Of a DNA stretch of 64,000 nucleotides, positions 1 through 8,131 are shown piece after piece (the stretch's first letter is position 1; every line of letters begins with the position of its first letter). Made by a program: the position numbers and the translations under genes. The notes below the pieces were generated by a model, which was not told where the DNA came from, ran no database searches, and was given only the letters and a program-made list of their open reading frames with translations. Where the stretch lies: assembly GCF_002844235.1 (NCBI RefSeq), contig NZ_PGTS01000007.1:1-64000 (forward strand), given 5' to 3'. The DNA comes from Thalassospira povalilytica (lineage in GTDB: Bacteria > Pseudomonadota > Alphaproteobacteria > Rhodospirillales > Thalassospiraceae).

Positions 1-9
1 CATTAAATA

Positions 10-37
10 AGCTCGCCCTATAAGGGCGGGCTTTTTT
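10..37 (+). terminator. Rho-independent terminator
   Basis: A 10-bp stem (10-19 with 23-32, one G-U pair) has a 3-base loop and is followed by a run of six T. It should end rightward transcription entering from outside the window. Because the next 700 bases carry initiator-tRNA 3'-end fragments, the upstream unit may be a stable-RNA operon. That unit is not visible here, so this is inference. Confidence 0.85.
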
Positions 38-152
38 AATGTTCGATTGTCGGGTGCATATGGATTGGAACATCGCAAACAGGCCAATGCCTGTTTGCAT
101 AAGGTTCTTTGCGGAGGCCATAGGCCGGAGCTGAGCGAACAAAGTGAGCGCT

Positions 153-171
153 AATCCTGCCCCCGCAACCA
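153..171 (+). other. Initiator tRNA 3'-end-like fragment, copy 1
   Basis: AATCCTGCCCCCGCAACCA matches the T-arm 3' strand, acceptor 3' strand, discriminator A and encoded CCA of bacterial tRNA-fMet (the E. coli gene ends in CCCCCGCAACCA). There is no T-loop or anticodon arm upstream, so this is not a whole tRNA. The TGCGGAG at 110-116 could pair with the acceptor strand with one mismatch, giving a 62-nt tRNA-like shape. That fold is speculative. Confidence 0.6.
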
Positions 172-180
172 ATAAAAAGA

Positions 181-209
181 CCCTGTCACCTTCGGTGGCA
201 GGGTTTTTT
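181..209 (+). terminator. Terminator in repeat copy 1
   Basis: CCCTGTCACC (181-190) pairs with GGTGGCAGGG (194-203) around a TTC loop, followed by six T. An A-rich stretch precedes it, so it could work in both directions. Confidence 0.85.
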
Positions 210-453
210 ATTGCCCGCAGAGACAGTCTTTAAACCTGTAACCTTCCTTGGTTATGAGCCTGTGCTCATAACTTGAAGGCTGAAGCTGTTAAGAAATCGC
301 TCCAGTGGAGCGATTTTAAGCTGAAGGTCGAGGACGGCGACTGCCGTGCGCAGACTGCGCTAGGGCCTCTTCCTCGAATCTTAGCTGCTGCCTGTTTGCA
401 CAAGGTTCTTTGCGAAGGCCAAAGGCCGCAGCTGAGCGAACGTAGTGAGCGCT

Positions 454-472
454 AATCCTGCCCCCGCAACCA
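454..472 (+). other. Initiator tRNA 3'-end-like fragment, copy 2
   Basis: This is the same 19-base CCA-ending fragment as at 153-171, exactly 301 bases downstream and in the same context. The upstream bases that could form the 5' acceptor strand (TGCGAAG) have more mismatches than in copy 1, so this copy looks more decayed as a tRNA-like fold. Confidence 0.6.
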
Positions 473-481
473 ATAAAAAAA

Positions 482-509
482 CCTGTCACCTTCGGTGGCA
501 GGGTTTTTT
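482..509 (+). terminator. Terminator in repeat copy 2
   Basis: CCTGTCACC (482-490) pairs with GGTGGCAGG (494-502), loop TTC, then a T run. It is the second copy of the hairpin at 181-209, with the outermost pair lost. Confidence 0.85.
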
Positions 510-764
510 ATTGCCCGCAGAGACAGTCTTTAAACCTGTAACCTTCCTTGGTTATGAGCCTGTGCTCATAACTTGAAGGCTGAAGCTGTTAAGAAATCGC
601 TCCAGTGGAGCGATTTTAAGCGGAAGGTCGAGCACGGCGACAGCCGCGCGCAGACTGCGCTTTCGCCCCTTCCTCAAATCTATCCGATACCTGTTTGCAG
701 GTTCTTTGCGAAGGCAAGAGACAAGAGCAGTCAGAACCAAATCCCGTTGCCATCGCCGCTATCC

Positions 765-2726
765 CTACTTGTCAGAGCGCGTCAAAAACATCGGCCCGCC
801 CTTATGTCTTGGGAAGCCATAGCCATTGACCATCACAACGTCGATGGCATCCGGGCTGTTGGCGATGCCTTCGCTCAGGATCTTGTCGCCTTCATTGCGC
901 ATGGCCGAGAGGATGGTGTCGATGATTTCATCATGGGAAAAGTTGCGGCGTGTGATGCCCTTCTTTTCTGACTCGGCAATGACCAGCGCGTCGACTTCCG
1001 GGTCCGGCTGGGCTTTGCCGTTTTCGTCATAGCGATACCATCCAAGGCCGTTCTTTTTGCCAAAACGCCCCATTTCGCACAGGTAATCGCCCAGTGCCAC
1101 ATACCGTTCTGCCGGATCACGGAAGGGGGCAAGGCGTTTGCGCGTGGCCCAGGAAATTTCGAGACCGGCCATATCCTGCATGGCAAACAGGCCCATCGGG
1201 AAGCCGAATTCGACCATGGCAGCATCGATCTGATGGGGAAGGGCGCCGTCTTCGAGCATATATTCGCAATGCTTGCGATAGGCCGACATGATGCGATTGC
1301 CAATAAAGCCGTCACAGACCCCGCAAGGCACGGCAATTTTGCCAAGAGCACGGCCAAAGGCAAAGGCGGTCGTAAGGCTTTTGGCGTCGGCCTGTCTGGT
1401 GCGGACGATTTCAAGTAGCTTCATGATATGGGCAGGCGAGAAGAAATGAAGCCCGATCACACGCCCCGGATTAACGCATTTTGCCGCGATCTCGTTGATA
1501 TCAAGATAGGACGTATTGGATGCCAGAACCGCATCTGGTTTGCAATGAAGGGACAGTTTACCAAACACGTCATGCTTGACCGCCATATCTTCAAAGACGG
1601 CTTCAACCACCAGATCGGCCGAAGCCAGGGCGGCATAGTCCGTACTGGTTGAAAGGGCCGCCATCAACTGATCAAAGCGATCCTGAGTGATCAATCCGCG
1701 CTTGAGGCTTCCTGAAAGATGCTTTTCGACCGTGTTGCAGCCATTCGCACAGGCATCTTCATTGCGTTCAATGATCGTGACCTTAAAGCCCGCAAGCAAG
1801 GATGCGGTTGCAATGCCCGCCCCCATGATGCCGCCGCCAATCACGCCGACATCGGTAATAGGTGCGGGATCCACATCGGAAAGCTCGGGCAATTTGCCAA
1901 CCGAACGTTCGGCAAAGAAGATGTGACGAAGCGCCTTTGACTGATCGCTGTCGCGCAGCTCAACAAAAGTTTGGCGCTCATAGGCAAGACCGTCTTTGGC
2001 CCCCTTTTCAAGGCCGGTACGCAGGACGTCGATGGCTGCAAGCGGTGCAATCTGGCCGCGGGATTTTTTGCGGGCAGATGCGACGATGTCGTCCCATGCG
2101 GCACTGTCGGGCACATCGACCGGCGCACGATCAACAAGGGCGACAGGCATATCGCGATCAAGGATCGTCTGGGCAAAGTCCTTGGCGGCATCAAGCAGCG
2201 CGCCGTGGCAAATCGCATCGATCAGGCCAATTTCGTTGGCCTTGGTGCTTGAAACCGGCTTGCCGGACGTGATGATGTTAATGGCCTCTGTCACTGGGAC
2301 CAGACGGGGCAGGCGAACCGTGCCACCCGCACCGGGGATCAGGCCAAGATTGACTTCCGGAAGGCCTAGTTTGGCCGATTTGTCTGCAATCCGGTAATGA
2401 CATCCCAGCGTGGCTTCGAGCCCGCCGCCAAGAGCATGACCGTGAATGGCCGCAATAACCGGTTTGGTTGCTGCTTCGAGCCGTTTGATCACATCGGGAA
2501 GGATCGGGTCTTTGGGCGGTTGGCCAAATTCCGTTACATCGGCCCCGGCGATAAAGGTTTTGCCGCCACAGATCATGATCGCGATCCTGATGGCCGGATC
2601 ATGATCGATTTGATCAAGGGCATCAACGATGCTGACCCGCACCGGATGGCTGGTGGCGTTGATCGGCGGATTGTCGACCGTGATGATGCCAATATGGTCT
2701 TCACGGGTCAGGGTGACGGTGGTCAT
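765..2726 (-). CDS. FadB-like enoyl-CoA hydratase / 3-hydroxyacyl-CoA dehydrogenase fusion
   Basis: Bifunctional beta-oxidation protein of about 653 residues. The N-terminal crotonase domain (about 1-190) shows the oxyanion-hole segment KTFIAGADVTEFG and the GHALGGGLE and LPEVNLGLIPGAGGT motifs. The C-terminal NAD-binding domain begins at about 290 with VGVIGGGIMGAGIA and carries the catalytic-histidine segment GLHFFSPAHIMKLLE and the substrate segment ASNTSYLDINEIA. I chose the second ATG, 9 bases after GGAGG; an earlier ATG at 2735 abuts the ribosome site. The gene starts 2 bases after the formamidase-like gene ends, so the two are co-transcribed. Context suggests it hydrates and oxidises the ring-derived CoA ester made from 2-aminobenzoyl-CoA, or opens the ring. 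The exact substrate is inferred, not shown. Confidence 0.88.
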   Translation of the reverse strand: MTTVTLTREDHIGIITVDNPPINATSHPVRVSIVDALDQIDHDPAIRIAIMICGGKTFIAGADVTEFGQPPKDPILPDVIKRLEAATKPVIAAIHGHALGGGLEATLGCHYRIADKSAKLGLPEVNLGLIPGAGGTVRLPRLVPVTEAINIITSGKPVSSTKANEIGLIDAICHGALLDAAKDFAQTILDRDMPVALVDRAPVDVPDSAAWDDIVASARKKSRGQIAPLAAIDVLRTGLEKGAKDGLAYERQTFVELRDSDQSKALRHIFFAERSVGKLPELSDVDPAPITDVGVIGGGIMGAGIATASLLAGFKVTIIERNEDACANGCNTVEKHLSGSLKRGLITQDRFDQLMAALSTSTDYAALASADLVVEAVFEDMAVKHDVFGKLSLHCKPDAVLASNTSYLDINEIAAKCVNPGRVIGLHFFSPAHIMKLLEIVRTRQADAKSLTTAFAFGRALGKIAVPCGVCDGFIGNRIMSAYRKHCEYMLEDGALPHQIDAAMVEFGFPMGLFAMQDMAGLEISWATRKRLAPFRDPAERYVALGDYLCEMGRFGKKNGLGWYRYDENGKAQPDPEVDALVIAESEKKGITRRNFSHDEIIDTILSAMRNEGDKILSEGIANSPDAIDVVMVNGYGFPRHKGGPMFLTRSDK

Positions 2727-2727
2727 A

Positions 2728-3564
2728 TCAGTCATCCTCCCCGCTGATCGGTGTCAAAAGGCAGGCGGTCAGATCAGACTCGGGATCGGCAAGATCGGCA
2801 ATGACATCGAAATGATGCTTGTCGGGGGCATGAACCGAACGGGTCGATGCGCCAAGCCCGGTCCAGATATTGGCAAGCAGATCATTCTGGCGGACAAATT
2901 CCGGACGTTCATCGGCACCGACCCAGCAGGTGAGTGAGCAGGGCAGGGTTGGTTTGAGAAGGGCTGCACTTTCGGTTGCCGCTTCTTCTTCATCAAGGCC
3001 CAGAACATCATTCATCGACGTGTACAAAAGCGGTCGCAAATCATGCAGTCCGGAAATTGACACCGTGTTTTCAACCCGTGCCAGAACACCGGGTGCCAAG
3101 GGCGAGGTGTTTGAAACCATCCGGCTGACAAGATGTCCGCCCGCCGAATGCCCGGTCAGGTGAATGGGACCGGATATGCGGCCCGCAACATGATTGATTG
3201 CCGCGGCAACCTGTCGGGTGATCCGGGACAGGCGGGCATCGGGTGCGAGCGTATAGCTTGGCAGGCAAACAGCCCAACCCCTTGCGACCGCGCCATTGGC
3301 AAGATGCGACCAGCTTGATTTATCAAAGGCCTTCCAATAGCCGCCATGAACGAGAACGACCAGGCCCTTTGGGGCGCCGACAGGCAGGAACAGATCGTAT
3401 TTTTCGCGATCAGCAGAACCATAGGGAACATCAAGTTCGGCCCGGCCATCGGTAATCAGGGCATCGCGGAACCGGGAGGATTGTTCAGCCCACATGCCCG
3501 GAAAGGATCCGGCATCGGCAATATGGTCGCCATTGGCATAAGCATCATCCCAGTCGGTAATCAT
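2728..3564 (-). CDS. Kynurenine formamidase-like alpha/beta hydrolase
   Basis: An alpha/beta hydrolase of about 278 residues. It has the HGGYW oxyanion motif (about residue 73) and the nucleophile elbow GHSAGGH, both typical of the arylformamidase family that hydrolyses N-formylkynurenine to kynurenine plus formate. A C-terminal HHFDV segment may supply the catalytic histidine. It is not the unrelated KynB cyclase-type metalloenzyme. The start at 3564 has GGAAG upstream at good spacing; a longer reading to 3615 lacks this. It is the first gene of a two-gene leftward operon, divergent from the monooxygenase. kynA and kynU lie in the same locus with no other formamidase visible, which supports the assignment. 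Formate released here could feed the Fds formate dehydrogenase 22 kb away. Confidence 0.82.
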   Translation of the reverse strand: MITDWDDAYANGDHIADAGSFPGMWAEQSSRFRDALITDGRAELDVPYGSADREKYDLFLPVGAPKGLVVLVHGGYWKAFDKSSWSHLANGAVARGWAVCLPSYTLAPDARLSRITRQVAAAINHVAGRISGPIHLTGHSAGGHLVSRMVSNTSPLAPGVLARVENTVSISGLHDLRPLLYTSMNDVLGLDEEEAATESAALLKPTLPCSLTCWVGADERPEFVRQNDLLANIWTGLGASTRSVHAPDKHHFDVIADLADPESDLTACLLTPISGEDD

Positions 3565-6070: not shown

Positions 6071-6829
6071 ATGGGTGATCTTGCCATTCAGTGTGCATTG
6101 ATAACCGGGGGCGGTTCAGGTGTCGGGGCGGTTATGGCCCGGATGCTGGCCGATGCCGGGGTCAAGGTTGCCGTTTCCGGCCGCCGGACCGATGTTCTGG
6201 CCGAGGTCGCCCAGCATGAAAACATCATGGCGATCGCAGCAGACGTTACCGATGAAACATCTGTGCGTGACATGTTCACCACCATGGTCGAAACCATGGG
6301 GGCGCCCGATCTGGTGATTGCCAATGCCGGTATGGCCGAAAGTGCCCCGGTCGGCAAAATGTCGGTCGATCTTTGGAAACGCACCATTGATGTCAATCTG
6401 ACCGGAACGTTTCTGACCTTCCGCGAAGGGCTTGCCGTGATGGACAAGGCCAAGCCGGGGCGACTGATTTCGATTGCCTCGACCGCGGGGCTTAAAGGTT
6501 ATGCCTATGTCACGGCCTATTGTGCGGCAAAGCATGGCGTTGTCGGCCTGATCAAGGGGATGGCCGTTGAGCTTGCCAGCAGCCCGATCACCGTCAATGC
6601 GGTTTGCCCGGGCTTTATGGAAACACCGATGCTTGAAAAGTCGGTGGCAAACATCGTTGCGAAAACCGGCATGACCCGTGATCAGGCTCGTGCAAGCCTT
6701 GCCAAAATCAATCCGCAGAACCGGTTCATTCAACCAGACGAGGTTGCTGAAACCGTGATGTGGCTGTGCAGCCCGAATGCGGGATCGATCACCGGCCAGA
6801 CGATTTCGGTGTCGGGAGGAGAAGCATGA
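6071..6829 (+). CDS. SDR-family oxidoreductase, aminobenzoyl-CoA locus
   Basis: Classical short-chain dehydrogenase of about 252 residues. It has the cofactor motif TGGGSGVG near residue 12, NAG in the VIANAGMAES segment, catalytic Ser in SIASTAG, and the Y-x3-K pair in YCAAKHG. The C-terminal SITGQTISVSGG is typical of FabG-like members. It begins 6 bases after the monooxygenase/reductase stop; an in-frame GTG at 6068 is an alternative start. By position it probably oxidises the hydroxyl left on the dearomatised ring (2-amino-5-hydroxycyclohexene-carboxyl-CoA type) or a later 3-hydroxyacyl-CoA. Substrate assignment is inference from context. Confidence 0.85.
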   Translation: MGDLAIQCALITGGGSGVGAVMARMLADAGVKVAVSGRRTDVLAEVAQHENIMAIAADVTDETSVRDMFTTMVETMGAPDLVIANAGMAESAPVGKMSVDLWKRTIDVNLTGTFLTFREGLAVMDKAKPGRLISIASTAGLKGYAYVTAYCAAKHGVVGLIKGMAVELASSPITVNAVCPGFMETPMLEKSVANIVAKTGMTRDQARASLAKINPQNRFIQPDEVAETVMWLCSPNAGSITGQTISVSGGEA

Positions 6830-7326
6830 ATATGAACAAATCCGAAAATGCCACCGGACCGGGCGGAAACGAAACGTCTGATATCTCCAAGGCGCGCCTG
6901 CGGGCCTGGCTGCAAATCCTGAAAGTGTCGCGCAAGATCGAAGGCGAACTGCGCGAAAAAATGCGGGTCGAGTTCGGATCGACCTTGCCCCGCTTTGATG
7001 TATTGGCCGCCCTTTATCGCGAACGCGATGGCATGCGCATGAGCGAACTTTCAAAATCGCTGATGGTTTCGAATGGCAATGTCACCGGCATCGTGGACCG
7101 GCTTGTGGCAGAGGGACTGGTGGTCCGCCTGCCGGTCGAAAATGACCGCCGGGCATCCATCGTGCGTTTGACCGAGGCAGGCGAAAAGGATTTCGCCGAA
7201 CGCGCACTGGTTCATGAAAGTTGGGTTTCCGATCTGTTTTCCGATCTGTCGTCATCGGATGCCGATGCCCTTATTCGTATTCTTCGCACCATCTCCCACC
7301 ATAACGAGGCGCCCCACCATGACTAG
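6826..7326 (+). CDS. MarR-family transcriptional regulator
   Basis: A winged-helix MarR protein of 166 residues. The recognition region [21 protein letters not shown] is followed by the wing segment [15 protein letters not shown], near residues 75-120. The start ATG overlaps the SDR stop (ATGA) and has GGGAGGA upstream. Family members in aromatic-CoA operons (BadR, CouR and similar) usually repress and respond to CoA thioesters. Its place inside the operon and the inverted repeat at 3668-3700 suggest autoregulation of the divergent promoter pair by an anthranilate-derived CoA ester. The effector is not visible from sequence. Confidence 0.9.
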
Positions 7327-8131
7327 GATGGCAAACATCACACCGACCCATTTCAATTGGCGCATGGAAGGCGACGTTGCCGTCATTTCACTGGACCGGC
7401 CGGATCGTAAAAACCCGCTGACCTTTGAAAGCTATGCCGAGCTTCGCGATACGTTCCGCGATCTGGTCTATGCCGATGACGTCAAGGCCGTGGTGTTCGG
7501 ATCAAACGGTGGCAATTTCTGCTCTGGCGGGGATGTGCATGACATTATCGGTCCGCTGATCAAAAAGGACATGAAGGGCCTTCTGGAATTCACCCGCATG
7601 ACCGGTGATCTGGTCAAGGCGATCATTGGCTGTGGCAAGCCGGTGATTGCGGCTGTGGATGGCGTTTGTGTGGGTGCGGGGGCAATCATTGCCATGGCAT
7701 CCGACCTGCGTCTGGCAACCGCAGCATCCAAAACCGCCTTCCTGTTTACCCGTGTCGGTCTTGCCGGATGCGATATGGGCGCATGTGCGATCCTGCCGCG
7801 CATCATCGGTCAGGGCCGTGCCGCCGAACTTCTTTATACAGGTCGTTCGATGTCGGCCGAGGAAGGCGAACGGTGGGGGTTCTATAACCGTCTGGTCGAG
7901 GCCGATGTTCTCGAAGCAGAAGCCATCGCCCTTGCCACCCGTATTTCCCAGGGTCCGAATTTCGGTCACATGATGACCAAGACCATGCTGGCCCAGGAAT
8001 GGAACATGTCGATTGAACAGGCCATCGAGGCCGAAGCACAGGCGCAGGCGATCTGCATGCAGACCGAAGATTTCAACCGCGCTTACAAGGCCTTTGTTGC
8101 CAAGGAAAAACCGGTGTTTGAGGGCAATTGA
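7319..8131 (+). CDS. Enoyl-CoA hydratase family protein
   Basis: A single-domain crotonase of 270 residues, read from ATG 7319, which overlaps the marR stop and has GAGG upstream. A second ATG at 7328 lacks proper spacing. The oxyanion segment [15 protein letters not shown] and the second loop [19 protein letters not shown] are clear. The usual hydratase glutamates are not obvious in the second active-site region ([19 protein letters not shown]), so it may be a hydrolase or a ring-opening member rather than a simple hydratase. It probably acts on the cyclic oxo-CoA intermediate, in partnership with the adjacent acyl-CoA dehydrogenase. Confidence 0.85.

Follow-up and report, generated by a model that had tools for sequence, protein, structure and literature searches.

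Repeats linked to tRNA genes (tRNA-linked repeats, TLRs) have been known since 1978, and a general account of their function and origin is still lacking. In Escherichia coli, 22 TLRs are found at ten loci (PMC8144298, citing Egan and Landy 1978 and Rudd 1999). Their hallmark is a segment of 18–19 bp that repeats, base for base, the 3΄ end of the stable-RNA gene immediately before it, and one to five units are present per locus within tRNA or rRNA operons (PMC8144298). Transcription and processing have been demonstrated for some members only. The units rrA, rrB and rrF are located between two rRNA-operon terminators, arise by read-through transcription and bind the proteins Hfq and CsrA, and their relatives are known only in Enterobacteriales (PMC8144298). 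This E. coli study was the only research article on TLRs that we found, and the literature on tyrT repeats, tRNA-fMet islands and Thalassospira islands yielded no alphaproteobacterial units.

Here we analyzed an array at the start of a 64 000-nucleotide stretch of Thalassospira povalilytica DNA (the window), and the best reading is an alphaproteobacterial form of TLRs, a class so far described from E. coli. We consider it probable that the array consists of TLRs on the tRNA-fMet gene closing an rRNA operon; this label rests on the published hallmark and not on descent, and the likeness to the E. coli units appears to be one of plan. The copied segment is 19 nt long and is present as two copies and a decayed one, with the tRNA-fMet gene seen upstream in four loci of relatives (L041, L042, L112 and L122); in the genome under study this gene lies outside the assembled contigs, and its position is taken from the relatives. 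The number of whole units per rRNA locus is 0–2 in the relatives, compared with two and a decayed one here, which agrees with the location and number of known TLRs.

Layout of the array and its genomic setting

The original prediction had described a 300-bp tandem array of two units and a decayed third, together with T-tailed hairpins, palindromes and a CCA-ending match to the tRNA-fMet 3΄ end, and all of these were recovered. TRF reported a 300-bp repeat at positions 83–715 (2.1 copies, score 1082). The array comprises two units, 300/301 bp in length (D1, 207 nt at 95%; D2, 95 nt at 93%), and from about position 681 a third, decayed one. The 19-mer AATCCTGCCCCCGCAACCA occurs exactly at 153–171 and 454–472 and equals the terminal 19 nt of tRNA-fMet in closed relatives. 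The T-tailed hairpins lie at 9–33 and 482–502, and the palindromes at 75–98, 294–316 and 594–616. The features are as follows:

1–40, forward strand: intrinsic terminator of type T2, following the tRNA-fMet gene (terminator scan; T-tailed hairpin)
41–152, forward strand: module b of unit 1 (alignment A2 of 28 copies; covariation)
about 47–70: weak antisense T-arm in module b, unit 1
75–98: palindrome GCAAACAGGC...GCCTGTTTGC in module b, unit 1
102–107: AGGTTC in module b, unit 1
108–152: hairpin insert replacing the T-loop in module b, unit 1
153–171, forward strand: 19-nt tRNA-fMet 3΄ end with CCA, copy 1 (exact match)
172–213, forward strand: intrinsic terminator of type T3, copy 1 (the equivalent at 473–513 was found by the terminator scan)
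217–262, reverse strand: antisense copy of tRNA-fMet positions 72 to 29, copy 1 (alignment score versus shuffles)
264–279, forward strand: sense anticodon-arm remnant in module a
294–316, forward strand: covarying palindrome AAATCGCTCCAGTGGAGCGATTT in module a
317–333, forward strand: sense TAAGCTGAAGGTCG-AGG in module a
334–453, forward strand: remaining module a (small covarying hairpin) and shortened module b΄
403–408: AGGTTC in module b΄
409–453: T-loop hairpin insert in module b΄
454–472, forward strand: 19-nt tRNA-fMet 3΄ end, copy 2 (exact match)
473–513, forward strand: intrinsic terminator of type T3, copy 2 (terminator scan)
517–562, reverse strand: antisense copy of tRNA-fMet positions 72 to 29, copy 2
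564–680, forward strand: remaining module a, copy 2, with its palindrome at 594–616
681–740, forward strand: decayed module b΄΄, its 19-nt end lost (nhmmer E 5e-11), bordering the convergent gene
765–2735, reverse strand: convergent gene resembling 3-hydroxyacyl-CoA dehydrogenase/enoyl-CoA hydratase (read from the translation)

A tRNA-like shape of 62 nt had also been proposed at 110–171. ARAGORN found 0 genes in the window, and this segment corresponds to the 3΄ strand of a T-arm behind short hairpins.

Base 1 of the window is the first base of contig C7 in a draft genome of 20 contigs, and a second locus with an array unit is located at the end of contig C6. Contig C7 begins with CATTAAATAAG, where a relative has CAACCAACATTAAATAAG, and C6 begins with TAAAAAGACC, where the window has CAACCAATAAAAAGACC; both contigs break directly past the tRNA end. 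Such breaks would be the expected outcome of a collapsed rRNA operon ending in tRNA-fMet, and judging from these contig ends the window appears to adjoin, on its upstream side, an rRNA operon with tRNA-fMet that remained unassembled. The assembled contigs of this genome contain no 5S or tRNA-fMet gene, and no further copy of the 19 nt within one mismatch was found in them because the rRNA operons are absent from the contigs.

The position downstream of an rRNA operon ending in tRNA-fMet, raised in the original prediction, was seen directly in closed or better assembled relatives, in which the order is rRNA (masked), 5S, tRNA-fMet, terminator and array (L041, L042, L112, L122). The T2 terminator also directly follows the tRNA-fMet CCA in L112, L031, L122 and L042. 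DNA matches to the array, whose occurrence in other genomes had likewise been anticipated, were present in 27 of the 28 other Thalassospira genomes, and the convergent fad-type gene marks the orthologous locus in five of the relatives (G003, G004, G012, G013 and G016). None of the outcomes that had been named as speaking against the original prediction (no tRNA-fMet or operon, no other genomes with the unit, no match to an initiator tRNA) came true.

Anatomy and possible origin of the unit

The unit can be read as a terminator, an antisense tRNA 3΄ half, palindromic hairpins, a sense T-arm with T-loop hairpins and the last 19 nt of the tRNA, in this order. Module a opens with the antisense copy of tRNA-fMet positions 72 to 29 (217–262 and 517–562), with an alignment score of 42.5 compared with maxima of 37 in 300 shuffles and 35 in 81 blocks of the window. 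A profile seeded with the window module a, with no tRNA given, matched real tRNA-fMet genes of many genomes on their antisense strand (E about 1e-6); later rounds of this profile may include tRNA rows, and the clean figure for the antisense part is the score of 42.5, not the profile E value. The T-arm of module b in unit 1 gave an antisense score of 23.5, which is by itself not above chance. After its antisense part, module a continues with a sense piece from position 32, a perfect palindrome that exhibits three paired states across the genus, and a second small hairpin. Module b consists of a palindrome, AGGTTC, two short hairpins at the site where the T-loop would continue, and then AATCC...CCA. 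A further module type, c, is present in four relatives (G009, G013, G014 and G016).

Covariation across the aligned copies was scored for both modules. Module a contained 11 pairs with two-sided change and scored 0.243, compared with 0.128 for shuffled and ≤0.045 for slid alignments, and module b scored 0.083 compared with 0.032. The hairpins of the unit are accordingly maintained through paired changes. Covarying perfect palindromes can also come from hairpin-templated DNA repair, for which no RNA function is needed. The palindrome CGCTCCAGTGGAGCG, searched for as a genome-wide repeat, was confined to the array loci.

These structures bear on a purely mutational origin, in which template switching during replication or repair, at tRNA hairpins beside a highly transcribed operon, would produce antisense-sense palindromes that were later tandemly duplicated and have no function. 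Module a indeed has the look of a snap-back, with antisense 72 to 29 turning over a few nt into sense from 32; the unit in L087 runs from antisense 69–30 through sense 32–47 and a hairpin to sense 9–77, and the mixed-arm palindromes of two relatives (G009C8, G004C5) resemble repair intermediates. However, the modules persist in the 27 of 28 relatives, one palindrome occurs in the three paired states and a comparable plan is seen again in other lineages, and although the idea deserves attention, we lean against it as a complete account. It concerns origin, and in that respect it can be compatible with the reading as TLRs.

An intrinsic terminator follows every 19-nt end in the window, and terminators of types T1 to T4, defined by sequence, combine freely with modules a, b and c. 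Together with the convergent gene at 765, these observations could mean that units are kept since each adds an intrinsic terminator insulating the rRNA operon from that gene. We think this unlikely as the whole explanation; it leaves the 19-nt ends, the antisense parts and the T-loop inserts unaccounted for, and some loci have no unit. A mutational origin followed by a terminator or RNA role would be self-consistent; the alternatives weighed here can hold together, and our degrees of confidence in them are not meant to sum to one.

For the array as TLRs, recombination through the 19-nt direct repeats would be able to add, remove and rearrange units, including across rRNA operons, and RNA could be made by read-through, as for E. 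coli rrA, rrB and rrF between their two terminators. An RNA function of the units is proposed. A terminator precedes every unit, and transcription is therefore doubtful. The original prediction had proposed a recombination product or small structured RNAs; both ideas were sensible, but they missed the antisense part, the exact borders at the tRNA end and the TLR pattern.

Pairing of the 19-nt end with the 5΄ strand of its own unit exceeded that of shuffles in 5 of 29 units of this order, and strict pairing was accordingly rejected as a general rule. One unit (L087 2384–2643, in G014 C1) carries a near-complete sense tRNA-fMet (9–77) behind an antisense copy and a palindrome. The T-stem variants AGAGG/CCTCT and GCAGG or GTAGG of Thalassospira tRNA-fMet coexist within single genomes, and displaced 19-nt ends sometimes retain a variant unlike that of the adjacent tRNA (L097, L089, L099).

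Comparison with E. coli units and distribution beyond the genus

We compared the array with the E. coli tyrT 178-bp repeats and their RtT (RttR) RNA (RF00391). Both are tandem units with a 19-nt copy that starts from the same T-loop position, and both contain an antisense T-arm and, in order, AGGTTC, a hairpin insert and AATCC. In contrast, the array is situated on the rRNA-linked tRNA-fMet and the tyrT repeats on tRNA-Tyr, for which no strong intrinsic terminator was seen after each copy. The RtT covariance model gave zero matches in window positions 1–800 at E 10 and recovered four E. coli units; at a low threshold, Rfam gave matches only far below family cut-offs, many of them on terminators.

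Similarly to the array, rrA, rrB and rrF, which are located after 5S in rrnA, rrnB and rrnD (PMC8144298), close an rRNA operon, are flanked by terminators on both sides and carry at their 3΄ end a copy of the operon's last stable RNA. They differ in that they copy 5S and not a tRNA, with one copy per operon, and in that their expression has been shown.

When the Tyr, Arg and Lys units of E. coli K-12 were read directly, the tRNA copy started at the same T-loop position, after short hairpins. The Lys and Arg TLRs (lysT to lysQ, argQZYV, lysV) share with the array an end of 18–19 nt, hairpins just before (A/C)ATCC and a 5΄ strand fitting their own tRNA; in a matrix comparison, the 5΄ strand of E. 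coli units fitted its own tRNA no worse than any other tRNA. They differ in unit length (98–156 bp), in being mostly located between tRNA genes and in having no antisense anticodon arm. The inner hairpins of the Lys units displayed a weak likeness to the window copies (p about 0.01–0.06, over several comparisons), and for these inner hairpins, homology of Thalassospira with E. coli is suggestive only.

Among 385 alphaproteobacterial genomes, exact matches to the module-b junction pattern were restricted to Thalassospira, with near-misses elsewhere. The same pattern gave ten matches in GTDB contigs: five in Thalassospira, two in acetic acid bacteria, two in other alphaproteobacteria and one in a Patescibacterium. 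For the five matches outside Thalassospira, a tRNA gene and the whole plan were found alongside only in the Patescibacterium; the other four were rejected as TLRs, having no tRNA in the fetched stretch and looking like island ends. No viral contig matched the pattern. A comparable unit was seen behind tRNA-fMet in a different Rhodospirillales family (G036, L159). In the Patescibacterium (Ca. Uhrbacteria; L175 4774–5040), a TLR-like unit after tRNA-fMet consists of a terminator, the antisense T-arm-like GGGATTTGAAGACCG, hairpins and then GGCTAATCCCGCCCCCGCAACCA.

A far-reaching possibility is that TLRs are a class of minute, widely distributed mobile hairpins, which enter at the 3΄ ends of tRNAs together with a 19-nt copy of the target, one element type being shared by Alphaproteobacteria, enterobacteria and the Patescibacterium and retargeted by swapping its tRNA-matching ends; we regard this as improbable. 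A genus with several rRNA loci per genome, with whole and missing units and clean empty sites, would offer comparative material on the origin of TLRs, and the Thalassospira loci let one ask if the hairpins are maintained because of an RNA or for reasons at the DNA level.

Orthologous loci in relatives and the island hotspot

Orthologous loci were paired by their downstream genes and contained 0–2 whole units, plus remnants. L026 (G015) has the tRNA, a T3 terminator and the flank with no unit, and the orthologous L016 (G028) has one unit in view; in L041 (G005), also orthologous to the empty L026, two units lie between the tRNA end and a like terminator and flank. At the window locus itself, we found one unit in L114 (G004), two in L112 (G003), one and a remnant in L126 (G013) and two and a remnant in L097 (G016), compared with two and the decayed third in the genome under study. 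The borders were the 19 nt in all compared cases. Units occupy the precise interval from the tRNA 3΄ end to the native flank, and their number varies among orthologous loci. Distal copies with no terminator behind them exhibited a tendency to CCA decay (CAACTC, CAACTT, CAATT). In G019, a full tRNA-fMet with the usual upstream spacer (L090 10058–10133, on C1) is located about 10 kb from a second tRNA-fMet end of that contig.

The original prediction had also pointed to integration of elements, and the site is indeed an island hotspot in relatives, although integration is not the best account of the units. According to this explanation, the array would represent footprints of islands that entered at the tRNA-fMet 3΄ end by means of a tyrosine integrase or a large serine recombinase; each would have left behind a new 3΄ end and terminator, with subsequent loss of its cargo. 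In G057, 3΄ ends occur at 329, 10186, 20062 and 38359 and integrases adjoin two distal copies; G012 has a 34-kb island with an integrase. The islands of both genomes at the tRNA-fMet end are of the tyrosine integrase kind. Large serine recombinases were found at the array loci of G004, G009, G010, G012, G014, G016 and G021; 8 of 13 PF07508 matches in nine relatives fall inside or beside array loci, and in L039 such a gene (PF00239, PF07508, PF13408) abuts the right end. Island copies also carry their own terminators.

However, the right ends of islands (..AGGTATGCCCCCGCAACCA, ..GGGCCCCCGCAACCA, or the anticodon loop to CCA) are unlike modules b and c before the 19 nt, and the islands whose ends were read are located between the tRNA and the first unit, never inside units. 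The genus-wide conservation of modules a, b and c is unlike that of chance deletion scars, and antisense tRNA sequence is unexpected from att sites. In this genus and order, islands that integrate into tRNA genes likewise have their att sites on the tRNA-fMet 3΄ end; in contrast to the units, their copies extend from the anticodon loop to CCA or comprise only the last 12–16 nt, and their ends have no module a, b or c. The assembled contigs of the genome under study, with rRNA stretches outside the assembly, encode zero PF07508 proteins and two PF00589 proteins, both on contig C4 and XerC/D-like by length and by presence in all genomes listed. Island ends in G004, G009, G010, G012, G014, G016, G021, G027 and G057 had only the tRNA end in common with the units. 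Since the island ends read here match units in the tRNA end only and no such enzyme was seen there in the genome under study, we take the hotspot to be real but most likely distinct from the units, and find it hard to credit the array to integration footprints. TLR arrays at an island hotspot can pass for integration scars, which is a warning for other loci.

A 10-kb stretch between unit copies on G014 C3 was considered as an integrase island and rejected; it appears to be an ordinary peptide-transport gene cluster common to relatives. At the island border in L039, the last codons of the large serine recombinase gene (6169–7818; ..SGPRNQH, stop) run into the tRNA-fMet end, and this island also carries a type IIG restriction-methylation gene. 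At the C6 end of the genome under study, beside the other unit copy, a defence reverse transcriptase of the UG9-small type (PADLOC E 1e-213), together with its PolA-like partner (E 1e-39), is encoded at L003 692–2344 and 1–699 (both on the reverse strand).
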